NCBI GenBank assembly: GCA_020830965.2
Contig: JACCFC020000002.1
Span: 1-64,000 of the forward strand
DNA from: Neisseriaceae bacterium TC5R-5
GTDB taxonomy: Bacteria; Pseudomonadota; Gammaproteobacteria; Burkholderiales; Chromobacteriaceae
DNA: 64,000 nt
Reading direction: 5' to 3'
Each line of letters starts with the position of its first letter. Position 1 is the stretch's first letter. Position numbers and translations under genes: made by a program. The notes below the pieces were generated by a model that worked only from the letters and a program-made list of their open reading frames with translations, was not told the origin of the DNA and made no database searches. Below, piece by piece: positions 1,518 through 46,610 of the stretch.

Positions 1518-3320
1518 CTATACCGTACTGGCCGCTTCGCACAGCAGCTGCAATAAGGCATCGCCATAACGGGCGAGCTTTAATTCACCCAAGCCATAAG
1601 CCCGACCCAGCTCGCCCCTGCTGGTTGGGTGACGCTCGACCAGATCGCGCAGGGTGCGATCGGTGAAAATCACATAGGCCGGTACGTTTTGCTCATCGGC
1701 TATCTGGCGACGCCAGGCGCGTAAGGCCTGCCATAACCGCTCTTCACGCTCGGTGCGCAGCCAGCGATCACCACTAATATGGCTGCGCGCTTTTTTCTCG
1801 TCCGCCAGTGGCCGCAAATAAATAGGCTGCAAACCTTTAAGCAGCGGGCGACAGGCTTCGGTCAGTACCAGCGACTGCCCACGCGCAATGTCCACCTGCA
1901 AGAGTTGACGAGCCACCAGTTGCCGGATAATGGAGCGCCAGCCACGCTGGTTGTAATCCTTGCCAATCCCATAGGTGGATAAACGATCATGCCCTAGTGC
2001 CGCCATGCTCGGCGTGTTGCGTCCGAGCAACACATCAATCACATGCCCGGTCGAGAAACGCTGCCCCACACGGTAAATACAGGACAGTAATTTTTGCACC
2101 AGCACGGTGGCATCGAAGGTGACGGGCGGATACAGGCAATTATCACAATGACCGCAAGGAGCATGTTGTTCGCCAAAATGGGCCAATATATGCTGCCGAC
2201 GGCAACTGGCCGTCTCGCAGAATGCCAGCATGGCATCCAGCTTGCTCAATTCCACCTGTTTTTGCAGCGCCGCCATTTCGCCGCCTTCTATCATCTGCCG
2301 CAATTGCACCACATCGTTCAGGCCATAGCACAGCCAACTGACAGCGGGCAGACCATCGCGCCCGGCCCGACCCGATTCTTGGTAAAAATTCTCCGGGCTT
2401 TTGGGCATATCAATATGGGCGACAAAACGTACATCGGGCTTATCAATGCCCATGCCGAATGCCACTGTCGCCACCATCACGATGCCCTCCTCACGCAGAA
2501 ACTGGCGTTGGTGGCTATCGCGCAGCTGATGCGTCAAACCGGCATGGTAGGGCAGCGCCGGAATGCCGTTATCGCACAACCATTGCGCGGTTTCATCGAC
2601 ACGCTTGCGCGACAAACAATACACAATGCCGGAAGCGCCCACATGTTCGTGGCGGATAAACTCCAGCAGCTGCTTTTTGGCATTGTGTTTTTCTATCACC
2701 TGATAATAGAGATTAGGCCGATCAAAGCTGGATAGAAATACCCGGGCCTCGGCCAACTGCAGATAATGCAGAATGTCGAGTTGGGTTTGCTCATCGGCAG
2801 TAGCCGTTAGCGCAATGCGCGGCACCTGTGGAAAACGCTGCGCCAGGATACCCAGCTGCTGATACTCCGGCCGGAAGTCGTGGCCCCAATGACTGACGCA
2901 ATGCGCTTCATCAATAGCGAACAGGCTGATCTGCAACTGCTCCAAAAATGCCAGAAAGCGCGGCATCAGCAAACGTTCGGGTGCCACATAGAGTAGATCG
3001 AGACGGCCATCACGCGCTTGCTGGGCAATTTCCCTGGCCGCGTCCGACGACGTGGCCGAGTTAAGACAGGCCGCCGCCACGCCCTGCGCCAGCAGGGTGG
3101 CGACCTGATCCTGCATCAGCGCAATCAACGGCGACACCACGATGGCAACGCCGGGGCGCATCAGCGCCGGAATCTGAAAGCACAGGCTTTTACCGCCACC
3201 GGTAGGCATCAACACCAGCGCATGACCGCCGTCGGCGATATGCGCAACAATCTCCCCCTGCTGACCACGAAACGCCGAGTAGCCAAAAATGTTTTTTAAA
3301 AGGGAGGGGGCATCCTGCAT
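1518..3320 (-). CDS. recQ: ATP-dependent DNA helicase RecQ
   Basis: RecQ is a 3'-5' helicase of recombination and replication-fork repair. In order it shows the helicase core (Walker A TGGGKS near residue 43, DEAH in FAIDEAHCVSHWG, the FRPEY aromatic loop), the zinc-binding segment with four cysteines (CETASC ... CGHCDNC) and winged helix, and a C-terminal HRDC domain over the last ~80 residues. The ATG at 3320 is chosen over one 39 bases upstream because it follows an AGGA and gives the usual short N-terminus before the helicase core. The product is 600 residues, normal for the family. It is divergent from the lipoprotein gene at 3459. Confidence 0.95.
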   Translation of the reverse strand: MQDAPSLLKNIFGYSAFRGQQGEIVAHIADGGHALVLMPTGGGKSLCFQIPALMRPGVAIVVSPLIALMQDQVATLLAQGVAAACLNSATSSDAAREIAQQARDGRLDLLYVAPERLLMPRFLAFLEQLQISLFAIDEAHCVSHWGHDFRPEYQQLGILAQRFPQVPRIALTATADEQTQLDILHYLQLAEARVFLSSFDRPNLYYQVIEKHNAKKQLLEFIRHEHVGASGIVYCLSRKRVDETAQWLCDNGIPALPYHAGLTHQLRDSHQRQFLREEGIVMVATVAFGMGIDKPDVRFVAHIDMPKSPENFYQESGRAGRDGLPAVSWLCYGLNDVVQLRQMIEGGEMAALQKQVELSKLDAMLAFCETASCRRQHILAHFGEQHAPCGHCDNCLYPPVTFDATVLVQKLLSCIYRVGQRFSTGHVIDVLLGRNTPSMAALGHDRLSTYGIGKDYNQRGWRSIIRQLVARQLLQVDIARGQSLVLTEACRPLLKGLQPIYLRPLADEKKARSHISGDRWLRTEREERLWQALRAWRRQIADEQNVPAYVIFTDRTLRDLVERHPTSRGELGRAYGLGELKLARYGDALLQLLCEAASTV

Positions 3321-3458
3321 GGTTGGGTCAATCCTGGAAAAGCGGCTATTGTACGGCAAGCCTTAACACACGTCCCTGCTCTGCGTGGCAACAACGTAAA
3401 AACTGGCCGCCCGCACCCTGGCTGTGCGAAACTCTGCGGGTTTCTTTGGAGCTTACTT

Positions 3459-3953
3459 ATGCGCACTCTCTACTTTATATTGCTGACTACGCTGCTTTTG
3501 GGCGGCTGTGCCAGCACAGGCAGTATCGGCAACGGCCAATCTGCCAGCAAAACCAGCGCCGCCAACACTGCCAACGTCCCACCCGCCCCGGCCAATGCCG
3601 ACTGGCAGAATCTGGGCGTCTCACCCAGTGGCAATATTCTTAACGAAATCGATAAGCTCTCGATCAAACGCGAAGGTGCCATAGTGACCTTCCGTGACCG
3701 CAAAACCATTTTCAATCTGCGCAAAGAGAATTTTCTATCTACGCCCAAGCATAAAATCTCCATCAATACCTGGCAGATGGACTGCGCCCAACGCACCTTC
3801 CGGCTACAGGACATGCTGTTATTTGACGAAAATGGCCGTCAGCTTGCCAGCTTCTCTTATAATGACAAGCAGATCAAAGCCATACCGATTGTGGCCAACT
3901 CTGCCAGCTACCAGCAAATGCTGCTGGTGTGTCAGGGCGTGCCCGGCTTTTAA
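3459..3953 (+). CDS. Small predicted outer-membrane/periplasmic lipoprotein
   Basis: This 164-residue protein starts with a lipoprotein signal peptide (lipobox LGGC, Cys at about 17), followed by a low-complexity Ser/Ala/Asn/Pro linker to about residue 47. The rest is a compact domain with two cysteines (about 110 and 159) that could form a disulfide. A GGAG precedes the ATG. The stop is 29 bases before the parA start, so the two may be co-transcribed. I do not recognise the family. The pattern resembles small 'surface-adhesin/stress' lipoproteins of proteobacteria, but no function can be assigned. Confidence 0.75.
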   Translation: MRTLYFILLTTLLLGGCASTGSIGNGQSASKTSAANTANVPPAPANADWQNLGVSPSGNILNEIDKLSIKREGAIVTFRDRKTIFNLRKENFLSTPKHKISINTWQMDCAQRTFRLQDMLLFDENGRQLASFSYNDKQIKAIPIVANSASYQQMLLVCQGVPGF

Positions 3954-3982
3954 ACCAGCAAACCATTCGTTCAGGGGGGCTT

Positions 3983-4780
3983 ATGCCAGCTATCCGTCGC
4001 GTTGTATTCAACCAAAAAGGTGGAGTGGGCAAGTCCACCATTACTGTTAATCTGGCAGCCGTCGCCGCCAAGCAGGGCAAAAAGGTATTACTGGTAGACC
4101 TCGACCCGCAAGGCAATGCCAGCCAATACCTGCTGGGCGCACAGGCACACCCCGACACCCCCACGCTGGCTGACCTGTTTGAACAAATACTCAGCATCTC
4201 CATTTTTGGCAAAGACCCGGAGGCATTTGTCCAAGCGACACCGATAGCCGGCTTGTCCCTACTGGCTTCCCACCCGGAACTGGCCGAACTGATGATCAAG
4301 CTGGAATCCCGCTACAAAATGTTCAAGCTGAAAGAAGCTCTGGACAAACTGGCCCCCCAGTACGACGAAATCTGGATAGACACCCCGCCAGCACTCAATT
4401 TTTATACCCGCTCGGCGCTGATTGCCGCCAACCGCTGCCTGATTCCGTTCGACTGCGACGCCTTCTCCCGCCAGGCTCTGTACAACCTGCAAAACAGCAC
4501 CGACGAATTACGGGCAGACCATAACCCGCATCTCTTTATAGAAGGCATTGTCGTCAACCAGTTTCAAGCGCGCGCCAGCCTGCCGGTACGACTGGTTGCC
4601 GAACTCATCGCCGAAGGACTGCCGGTGCTGCAATCCACACTGTCCGTCTCGGTTAAGATCCGCGAATCACACGACGCCGCCTGCCCGATGGTTTATCTTG
4701 ATCCGCGCCACAAACTCTCGCGCGAATTCGAAGCGCTGTATCAGGAGCTGAGTACCGCCAAACACACCACCGCAGCCTGA
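3983..4780 (+). CDS. ParA/MinD-family ATPase (orphan, no ParB)
   Basis: The protein is a deviant-Walker P-loop ATPase of the ParA family: KGGVGKST at residues 12-19, the DLDPQGN switch near 42, and IDTPP near 133. Such proteins position DNA, chemoreceptors or other cargo by ATP-driven dimerisation on the nucleoid. The ATG at 3983 follows a G-rich ribosome site and puts the P-loop at the N-terminus, as expected (265 residues); the in-frame upstream start overlapping the lipoprotein gene is less likely. No ParB, no parS-like repeat and no chemotaxis gene is nearby, so the cargo is unknown. It is convergent with comEC, with only 14 bases between stops. Confidence 0.88.
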   Translation: MPAIRRVVFNQKGGVGKSTITVNLAAVAAKQGKKVLLVDLDPQGNASQYLLGAQAHPDTPTLADLFEQILSISIFGKDPEAFVQATPIAGLSLLASHPELAELMIKLESRYKMFKLKEALDKLAPQYDEIWIDTPPALNFYTRSALIAANRCLIPFDCDAFSRQALYNLQNSTDELRADHNPHLFIEGIVVNQFQARASLPVRLVAELIAEGLPVLQSTLSVSVKIRESHDAACPMVYLDPRHKLSREFEALYQELSTAKHTTAA

Positions 4781-40701: not shown

Positions 40702-40899
40702 CTACCAGCCCCAGTTAGGTGCTGGGCAACCGAAAAGTCCCCAGTTTTTAGATGTGGCGCCATTACTATTCTTCCAGACACAATGCTCGACACCTGCTAC
40801 CCAATTAGAGCTAACTTTACGCCACGAACCTGCCTGAGAAGGGCCAGACAGAGTAACCATACAGCCAACTAAAATAGCCATCAAAGTTAATTTTTTCAT
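40702..40899 (-). CDS. Tiny exported protein, paralogue 1
   Basis: This 65-residue protein has a clear signal peptide (MKKLTLMAILVGCMVTL, cleavage near SQAGS, about residue 23). The mature ~42 residues are rich in Trp, Asn and Ser and contain two cysteines, likely one disulfide: WRKVSSNWVAGVEHCVWKN, then GLFGCPAPNWGW. AAGGAG precedes the ATG. A similar gene lies just upstream. I do not recognise the family. Size and export could fit a secreted peptide, a small envelope protein or a bacteriocin-like product; nothing decides between these. Confidence 0.7.
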   Translation of the reverse strand: MKKLTLMAILVGCMVTLSGPSQAGSWRKVSSNWVAGVEHCVWKNSNGATSKNWGLFGCPAPNWGW

Positions 40900-40959
40900 G
40901 ACAAGACTCCTTGAGCAAACATCAAATGGAAAAATTCATGCTGCAATGAGAAAACCATT

Positions 40960-41145
40960 TCATCCAGGGTAAGGACAGCCAAAGAGGCCCGAATTGCGGT
41001 ATGTCGCGTTACCTTTTTTCCAAGTGCAATACTCAACAGCAAAATTCCAGTTGGAATAAGTTTTCACCCATGAAGCAGCATAAGAAGGTGTAGATAAAAC
41101 ACCCATAAAACCCAATGCAATAACGGCCAATGTCAATTTTTTCAT
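40960..41145 (-). CDS. Tiny exported protein, paralogue 2
   Basis: A 61-residue protein with signal peptide (MKKLTLAVIALGFMGVL, cleavage near SYAAS). The mature part, WVKTYSNWNFAVEYCTWKK then GLFGCPYPG, shares W-x-K-x-x-SNW-x-x-x-VE-x-C-x-WK and GLFGCP-x-P with paralogue 1. The ATG at 41145 is preferred over an upstream one because it begins the signal peptide and follows AAGGAG. The two genes are 60 bases apart in one direction, so they probably form an operon from a tandem duplication. Function unknown. Confidence 0.7.
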   Translation of the reverse strand: MKKLTLAVIALGFMGVLSTPSYAASWVKTYSNWNFAVEYCTWKKGNATYRNSGLFGCPYPG

Positions 41146-41277
41146 GGCATTACTCCTTGAAGTTTTGTCGCTTAAAAGGGCTAATGAAATCAGAACTAGT
41201 TCCGAAGTCATGACTGCAATCTACGGCAATAAAATCATTAATGCAATAGATAAAAAAAGACCTTTAGTACAGGTTGA

Positions 41278-41867: not shown

Positions 41868-41947
41868 ATCATTGTAGAGACAAGGCGTCCATCATTGTAG
41901 AGACAAGGCGTCCATCATTGTAGAGACAAGGCATGCCTTGTCTCTAC
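41868..41947. repeat. REP-type repeat cluster next to RayT
   Basis: Two direct units of 23 bases (ATCATTGTAGAGACAAGGCGTCC at 41868 and 41891) are followed by a third that completes the palindrome GTAGAGACAAGGC-AT-GCCTTGTCTCTAC (ending 41947). The core is the same as at 42631 and 46452. The cluster starts 44 bases upstream of the RayT pseudogene start. Confidence 0.85.
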
Positions 41948-42007: not shown

Positions 42008-42358
42008 CTACACCATCGCCTCCAACTCCTGCACCGCGCCATCCATCTGCCGTTCAAACGGCTCCAGCAATACCCTGACTTCGCTGGCTAATAGCTTGTC
42101 ATCTTCCAGCTTGCGTAAACATTGCAACATCACTTGCAGTGCAGAATGGGTATCGCTAAGGATTTTCACGTTCTCACCTAATGTACTGGCGATGGCTTGT
42201 TGGTAGCCACGGGCTCGCTGTAGATGAACATCCAGTCGCGTTTGTTGCGGCAATAATTCCTGATGCAGGCGGTGCAGCGCACCTAGTTCCAGACTGAGAT
42301 CATGCACCGCCTGACGGGCGGCAAGAGGAGTGAGGTTATTGTCTAACGGTGTTGACAT
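42008..42358 (-). CDS. Predicted all-helical protein of unknown function (116 aa)
   Basis: A 116-residue acidic protein with no signal peptide or membrane segment and long stretches of heptad-like Leu/Ala spacing (LSLELGALHRLHQELLPQQTRLDVHLQRARGYQ, then MLQCLRKLEDDKLLASEVRVLL), suggesting a coiled coil or helical bundle. AGGAGC precedes the ATG at 42358, which is chosen over an unsupported start 63 bases upstream. Its leader carries a perfect 10-base hairpin and a larger structured element (42431-42580). It is divergent from mcrB. I do not recognise a family. A small RNA-binding or regulatory role is only a guess. Confidence 0.6.
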   Translation of the reverse strand: MSTPLDNNLTPLAARQAVHDLSLELGALHRLHQELLPQQTRLDVHLQRARGYQQAIASTLGENVKILSDTHSALQVMLQCLRKLEDDKLLASEVRVLLEPFERQMDGAVQELEAMV

Positions 42359-42386
42359 CTTACGGCTCCTAACTGGTTTAGCTGGC

Positions 42387-42412
42387 CCCCATCTGCGTTT
42401 GGGCAGATGGGG
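42387..42412 (-). promoter_or_regulatory. Perfect leader hairpin upstream of the 116-aa gene
   Basis: CCCCATCTGC and GCAGATGGGG form a 10-base GC-rich stem with a 6-base loop, 28 bases upstream of the ATG at 42358. No T-run follows in either direction, so it is not a standard terminator. Confidence 0.6.
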
Positions 42413-42430
42413 CAGACACATGACACAGTT

Positions 42431-42580
42431 AGAGACCCGATTTAACTAGAGACCGGTGGCCCGAAGGCCCAGTGCCACGGCCTGCCCGGTGGGCATGCAA
42501 TGGCACAGTCACGAATAAGGCTGGCTTATCCGCTAGTTAATCTCGGGTCTCTAAACCCGAATGCCGTTGGTATGACGGCA
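42431..42580 (-). ncRNA. Candidate structured RNA or leader element between the 116-aa gene and mcrB
   Basis: Nested perfect helices can be drawn. The outer stem AGAGACCCGA (42431-42440) pairs with 42543-42552, continued by TAACTAG (42443-42449) with CTAGTTA (42533-42539). Inside are GGCC/GGCC (42458-42469), GTGCCA/TGGCAC (42472-42477/42501-42506) enclosing TGCCC-GGT-GGGCA (42483-42495), and ATAAG/CTTAT (42515-42529). A further hairpin TGCCGT/ACGGCA (42562-42580) flanks it. On the minus strand the GGCC stem is capped by UUCG closed by C-G, a specially stable loop, which favours minus-strand transcription. CGGGT (42544-42548) can alternatively pair with ACCCG (42555-42559), excluding the outer stem. 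No known RNA family was recognised. Confidence 0.5.
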
Positions 42581-42630
42581 CGTCGGCTAGCGTATGGGTT
42601 TGCCACAGGGGTGTCAAGATGTTCATCACC

Positions 42631-42658
42631 GTAGAGACAAGGCATGCCTTGTCTCTAC
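42631..42658. repeat. Single palindromic REP unit upstream of mcrB
   Basis: A perfect 28-base palindrome made of GTAGAGACAAGGC, AT-centred GCAT overlap and GCCTTGTCTCTAC, identical in core to the copies at 41868-41947 and 46452-46610. It lies 88 bases before mcrB. Confidence 0.9.
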
Positions 42659-46455: not shown

Positions 46456-46610
46456 AGACAAGGCATGCGTTGATCATCGTAGAGACAAGGCATACGTGAT
46501 CATCGTAGAGACAAGGCATACGTGATCATCGTAGAGACAAGGCATACGTGATCATCGTAGAGACAAGGCATACGTGATCATCGTAGAGACAAGGCATGCC
46601 TTGTCTCTAC
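46452..46610. repeat. Tandem REP array downstream of mcrC
   Basis: Six units begin GTAGAGACAAGGC at 46452, 46479, 46505, 46531, 46557 and 46583, spaced 27, 26, 26, 26 and 26 bases. Most share the linker ATACGTGATCATC; the last completes the 28-base palindrome ending GCCTTGTCTCTAC. The array starts within the last codons of mcrC. Because the linkers are identical, this is a tandem repeat and not a CRISPR. Confidence 0.9.

Follow-up and report, generated by a model that had tools for sequence, protein, structure and literature searches.

The structured element at positions 42,431-42,580 of the window is very probably the leader RNA of the 116-aa gene that follows it, and a diverged form of the C4 antisense RNAs known from phages. 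The window is the whole 64,000-nt stretch of DNA from Neisseriaceae bacterium TC5R-5 that was analysed. Rfam returned no match anywhere in it at the gathering threshold, and a first-pass annotation made from the letters had placed the element in no recognised family. This placement was wrong, although the window copy does fall short of the Rfam cut-off: in a permissive search, C4 (RF01695) matched the minus strand at 42,406-42,491 with 37.8 bits (E=8.7e-6 for 401 bases; cut-off 45 bits). Most homologues found with the window-copy model score 49-79 bits against Rfam C4, and two score 37-44 bits. Based on these scores relative to the 45-bit cut-off, we call the window copy a C4-derived variant and the majority class C4. 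Weak matches to isrK (RF01394) and c4-a1b1 (RF03163) were also found in relatives, and the window copy matches isrK with 15 bits. Our first idea, an unlisted riboswitch or a retron-like unit, was dropped once relatives matched Rfam C4.

The C4 identity was decided by a reverse test. Covariance model R1 was built from five copies of the window genome only and contains no phage sequence. It aligned end to end, over all 190 positions, with the immunity region of phage P1 (a1-b1-C4-a2; 55.1 bits, E=1.9e-14). The match spans from the 5' hairpin to the 3' hairpin, and the P1 record annotates a1, b1, C4, a2, b2 and icd at the corresponding positions. The parts of a C4 fold, a long outer stem, a UUCG-type hairpin, a variable loop b' and a junction strand a', are all present and align to model positions 1-87. 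Upstream in the same transcript lie a1 and b1, complementary to a' and b' in a 20-bp stem with compensatory changes. The majority class carries a2/b2 targets at the ribosome-binding site of the downstream gene; in the window subfamily none was found. As for RNase P processing, the majority class has a UAU/GGCGGG site similar to that of P1, and the window differs there. At the window, no icd/ant (antirepressor) operon stands behind C4, and the 116-aa protein has no phage family match; IMG/VR held no relative by protein or DNA pattern. Judged by these sequence comparisons, the window element is a C4-type antisense leader rather than a new class.

Read on the minus strand, the unit runs from a promoter through the structured leader to the 116-aa gene. 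The RNA of 42,431-42,580 folds at -71.5 kcal/mol, compared with -49.2 ± 4.1 kcal/mol for 200 dinucleotide shuffles, none of which was as stable (z=-5.5). For the whole leader (42,359-42,589), z is -5.8. The strong structure claimed for this interval is thereby borne out, also by covariation in 66 homologues. All the described features were confirmed: the nested hairpins, the C(UUCG)G hairpin of the minus strand, and the outer stem, given as 10+7 bases and consisting of 10 bp followed by 8 bp. The interval is correct for the structure but too short: it covers the 5' two thirds of the element, missing a 3' third that reaches to about 42,388 and a promoter at 42,617-42,589. The neighbouring 'helical-protein gene' does exist and is in fact the element's own downstream gene. 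As read from the sequence, the putative promoter has a -35 box TTGACA (42,617-42,612), a 17-nt spacer and a -10 box TACGCT (42,594-42,589); a strict scanner found no promoter at the window copy. It is retained in related copies, whose flanking sequence diverges immediately upstream of it, and a loose scan found a -35/-10 pair in 49 of 66 homologues.

All parts of the leader lie on the minus strand. The 5' hairpin (helix P1; 42,562-42,580) has 98.4% of cells paired, with compensatory changes (alignment A5). Next comes the 5' arm, formed by a1 (TTAGAGACCCGA) and b1 (ATTAACTAG) at 42,533-42,554, a predicted internal decoy for a' and b' of C4. Its stem has 14 pairs with compensatory changes and its position matches the annotated a1/b1 of phage P1. 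Hairpin P3 (42,512-42,532) is 96% paired, with double changes in all eight of its pairs. Within the C4 core, the variable loop b' (42,440-42,450) has b1 as its partner here and in most homologues also the Shine-Dalgarno (SD) sequence. The junction strand a' (42,426-42,439) pairs with a1 and contains CUAACUG, complementary to CAGUUAG at the SD. The 3' hairpin (42,388-42,411), which carries a2 in most homologues, is followed by the SD region CAGUUAGGAG (42,366-42,375) and the gene for the all-helical 116-aa protein (42,008-42,358).

The RNA can adopt two folds. In the precursor fold, C4 is paired with the 5' arm (a1-b1) and with the arm that precedes it; in the C4 fold, the 5' half of C4 pairs with its 3' half. 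The two folds use the same strands and are mutually exclusive. The covariance test for compensating changes, which the first-pass annotation had proposed, was run and was positive for both. Among 66 homologues, 90% of the precursor-fold pairs are standard, with 678 double-change cells compared with 177 ± 12 in shuffles and 62-108 when partners were slid. The outer stem and hairpin of the C4 fold are 97.2% paired in the same homologues, with 125 double-change cells versus 26. The first five copies already had double changes in 18 pairs, versus 6.2 in shuffles. Outer-stem variants in which both strands changed together include AACTAG/CTAGTT, CCACAAG/CTTGTGG, ACACACTG/CAGTGTGT and CCAACAG/CTGTTGG.

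The 261-bp neighbourhood of the element recurs within the window genome, where R1 detected 17 copies. Those that were aligned share the promoter, structured leader, SD and a gene of 115-116 codons, and are divergent outside the unit. R1 matched 54 of 200 related genomes of 19 genera. A second covariance model, R2, matched 49 of 399 genomes sampled across the order and found up to 40 copies per genome in the window's genus (40 in G002 and G018, 38 in G013 and 35 in G005). The G005 copies are scattered all round the chromosome, which is one contig of 5.33 Mb. Chromobacterium sphagni (G016) and C. subtsugae PRAA4-1 (G007) are among the relatives' genomes; G015 we take to be C. violaceum ATCC 12472, as its vioS-vitR gene pair supports. 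Among the neighbours of the window-genome copies, inspected in part, most are ordinary chromosomal genes (arginase, CheA, a potassium transporter, dihydroxy-acid dehydratase), while two copies adjoin phage genes. The position of the window copy next to a defence locus, to which attention had been drawn, looks incidental given the mostly ordinary neighbours of other copies.

C4 RNA is already known, including a multi-copy chromosomal family in Acinetobacter (PMC5320573), and some of the stronger copies may already be marked by Rfam-based genome annotation. What is new are genomes of the Chromobacterium group with up to 40 C4 copies, mostly outside prophages and ahead of DUF1484 genes. The units share with C4 of phages P1 and P7 (RF01695; c4-a1b1, RF03163) the promoter, 5' hairpin, a1-b1, C4 core, SD-overlapping site and small gene. 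They differ in being chromosomal, in their many copies and in carrying DUF1484-type genes instead of icd-ant; the window copy differs further in its score under the Rfam cut-off and in having no recognisable a2/b2. The isrK RNA of prophage Gifsy-1 (RF01394) is likewise a prophage leader RNA to which the relatives' leaders are similar below threshold, but no Gifsy-type operon is found at the window. The Group 1 sRNAs of Acinetobacter baumannii are chromosomal C4-like RNAs with a variable loop, present many times per genome and apparently processed from longer transcripts (PMC5320573). Phage or bacterial targets in trans were proposed for these (PMC5320573), whereas most copies here show a target in cis, located over the SD of the gene that follows.

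If each RNA is an antisense repressor with a private key, its loop should be complementary to its own gene's SD but not to the SDs of neighbouring genes. In 35 non-redundant homologues from outside the window genome, b' had a Watson-Crick run of 8.4 nt with its own SD region, compared with 4.3 ± 1.0 nt for the SD regions of other copies. The junction strand a' matched its own 3' hairpin over 7.7 nt and those of other copies over 5.1 nt. Own-target matching was equalled in 0 of 2000 permutations for b' and likewise for a'. Phage P1, used as a positive control, gave runs of 8 and 7 nt at the annotated sites. The longest Watson-Crick run replaced duplex energies as the measure of own versus other targets, since these discriminated poorly because of GC-rich parts common to the targets.

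In phage P1, C4 RNA is processed by RNase P to about 77 nt and silences the phage's own antirepressor operon, according to the P1 work as cited in PMC5320573. By analogy, one promoter would give a transcript with the order a1-b1-C4-(a2-b2)-gene, as in P1. In this precursor, a1 and b1 would pair with a' and b' inside C4 and lock C4 away. Once released, by RNase P in the case of P1, the C4 part would refold to the C4 fold, exposing b' in a loop and a' in the junction. These would then anneal to complementary sequences that overlap the ribosome-binding site or lie upstream of it, blocking translation in cis and also in trans on any matching mRNA. For the repression, the RNase P processing and the action in trans, this scheme draws on the P1 work as PMC5320573 cites it; we infer that window-type units are transcribed, processed and repressed in a like manner.

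How the window copy itself is wired is uncertain. It retains the promoter, the decoy arm, the C4 fold and an intact gene. Its b' matches its own SD over only 3 nt; b'-SD matches in the window subfamily are 3-5 nt, which is chance level, and a2 is not recognisable in the window 3' hairpin. The match of a' (CUAACUG) to CAGUUAG at the SD is 7 nt long, a length reached by 2% of shuffles (p ~0.02). It is common to the window and one sister copy, and three other sisters are at chance level. Because the b'-SD match is weak and the a'-SD match occurs in one sister only, rewiring and decay are both possible: control may have passed to a', other targets may be addressed, or the copy may be decaying.

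We consider it unlikely that the window copy is a relic that derives from a C4 module and regulates nothing any more. Decay would explain why b2 and a2 are unrecognisable in the window subfamily, why the window score lies below the Rfam cut-off, and why TAG codons interrupt the reading frame of some sisters and one lacks most of the RNA. It fits poorly with the b1/b' stem of loci L029-L032, which consists of four different sequences, each still complementary on both sides, with a promoter that is retained while the flanks are not, and with the intact gene of the window. In three copies of the window gene, TAG stands in place of the sisters' CAG (G000:C2:96708-97055, C2:73435-73779 and C2:27949-28293); these copies are probably pseudogenes.

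Among the three options offered by the first-pass annotation, a riboregulatory leader directed at the 116-aa gene is the best supported, and the DNA end of a mobile unit is unsupported as an explanation of the structure. The latter reading, in which the element is the terminal structure of a non-autonomous mobile DNA element, is very improbable even though the copies are many, dispersed and sharp-edged and a 28-nt palindrome borders many units. The copies, ~74-90% identical, have their edges at the promoter and the stop codon, for which selection would be a sufficient explanation, and compensatory changes preserve RNA pairs including G-U. The perfect palindrome (GTAGAGACAAGGCATGCCTTGTCTCTAC) occurs exactly at 13 sites in the genome; eight of these lie no more than ~100 bp from a C4 unit, but at varying distance and on either side. 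It flanks the window unit, just upstream (42,631-42,658) and downstream (an identical copy at 41,920-41,947), and is found again at 46,583-46,610. The palindrome may represent a REP-like repeat, or it may contribute to the spread of the units. A ligand-sensing translational riboswitch with its aptamer in the multibranch region can hardly be entertained: competing strands around the SD and a conserved multibranch core are typical of such riboswitches, but this core is the C4 RNA, homologous to P1 and Rfam C4, each copy has a pairing strand of its own, as fits antisense recognition and not a shared ligand, and the downstream genes include a phage antirepressor-type protein (L069).

Returning to the C4 leader, the gene behind it at the window encodes a protein predicted to be all helix (pLDDT 74), which is probably a remote relative of the DUF1484 family (PF07363), to which VioS belongs. 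This relation is based on profile comparison and transitive clustering and not on direct BLAST. The DUF1484 profile scored 16.7 bits (E=0.01), below the Pfam cut-off of 21.2 bits, while BLAST clustering joined the protein to DUF1484 and hhalign gave E=4.9e-6 (86%). Direct pairwise BLAST against VioS was negative (E=19). Protein searches of PHROGs and NCBIfam gave nothing useful, and a PDB sequence search gave only coiled-coil noise. The window protein and VioS are ~24% identical in a multiple alignment, and antagonism of CviR cannot be assumed for the former. In the related genomes, a C4 element lies 115-235 nt upstream of at least 35 of 61 DUF1484 genes, a lower bound since some weak RNA matches were left out of the lists compared. 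A further 15 of the 61 are in tandem behind another DUF1484 gene.

VioS inhibits the LuxR-type receptor CviR and thereby represses the purple pigment violacein; the interaction of VioS and CviR was found by yeast two-hybrid (PMC5339254, PMC11019928). It was the only characterised DUF1484 protein found in our literature search, and none of the papers searched connected C4 with Chromobacterium, DUF1484 or VioS. A predicted VioS model (pLDDT 71, pTM 0.48) had no fold match with E < 0.4. The six vioS primers that have been published all have exact matches in C. subtsugae PRAA4-1, the strain compared here in place of ATCC 31532 itself, at a C4-led 138-aa DUF1484 gene, which identifies that gene as the published vioS. 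In locus L077, the promoter primers span 3257-3451, the C4 element 3443-3638, and the coding primers run from codon 2 at 3676 to 4103. These positions place the end of the published promoter fusion (196 bp) 9 nt inside the C4 element. Two Tn5 insertions in what their source terms the vioS 'putative promoter region' may lie in the C4 leader.

C. subtsugae PRAA4-1 has two vioS-like genes (L177 10444-11087 and L178 9105-10049), one C4-led and one beside a vitR-like gene. The second copy is 91% identical, is syntenic with the vioS-vitR pair of ATCC 12472 and has no C4 directly upstream. Two primers for the knock-out fragment (PMC5339254) match both copies in PRAA4-1. CV_1055 of C. violaceum ATCC 12472, upstream of which no C4 was detected, was initially taken for a vioS that had lost its C4; it is the VitR-linked copy.

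Control of vioS expression has been stated to be open (PMC5339254) for C. subtsugae ATCC 31532, from which the quorum-sensing reporter CV026 is derived. Under sublethal tetracycline, a translation inhibitor, vioS mRNA is lower even without airR, and a mechanism is lacking (PMC7240160). Since the P1 C4 system acts on translation of the gene behind the leader, C4 is a natural candidate for this response, and the tetracycline effect on vioS could run through it. The C4 leader ahead of vioS offers a readily testable mechanism for vioS control. The published promoter fusion left it out, and C. subtsugae has the second, VitR-linked copy. It is possible, if on balance somewhat doubtful, that in Chromobacterium and relatives a phage immunity RNA has given rise to private antisense locks across the whole genome, each with a key to its own gene and one of them setting the level of VioS. 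If so, quorum sensing and antibiotic-induced violacein would be linked to the release of a phage-derived C4 and translation from the vioS leader. An RNA of phage superinfection immunity would then serve as a regulatory cassette that can be used repeatedly, in as many as 40 copies on one chromosome, most of them not in prophages, whose target sites are visible.

Cargo other than DUF1484 genes is mixed, and includes short peptides of ~60 aa followed by a second gene, a ~150-aa family common in G005, and a Bro-N/ORF6N protein. The peptide genes (57-62 aa) stand between C4 and the second gene, in the position of P1 icd, in many copies outside the window genome (L048, L053, L059, L071 and others); the peptides have no family match. 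The second cargo family of G005 (L158-L175; ~140-175 aa) is present in many copies with LPFVR...YPHYWQ...YGRECAAHL motifs, and most C4 loops of its units are without an SD match. Phage-type arrangements persist in the clade: in L069 (genome G022), C4 lies directly ahead of the Bro-N/ORF6N antirepressor-type protein, and in L121 a C4 unit is beside a Rha/KilAC antirepressor. In L115 (5404-7054), a LuxR-type autoinducer-binding gene (PF03472) immediately follows a C4 unit with a 102-aa gene, an arrangement of note because VioS targets CviR. The window also encodes two tandem related small peptides of 65 and 83 aa on the minus strand (40,702-41,211), which are possibly secreted, with leader-like MKKLT... 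starts and W/C-containing C-termini.
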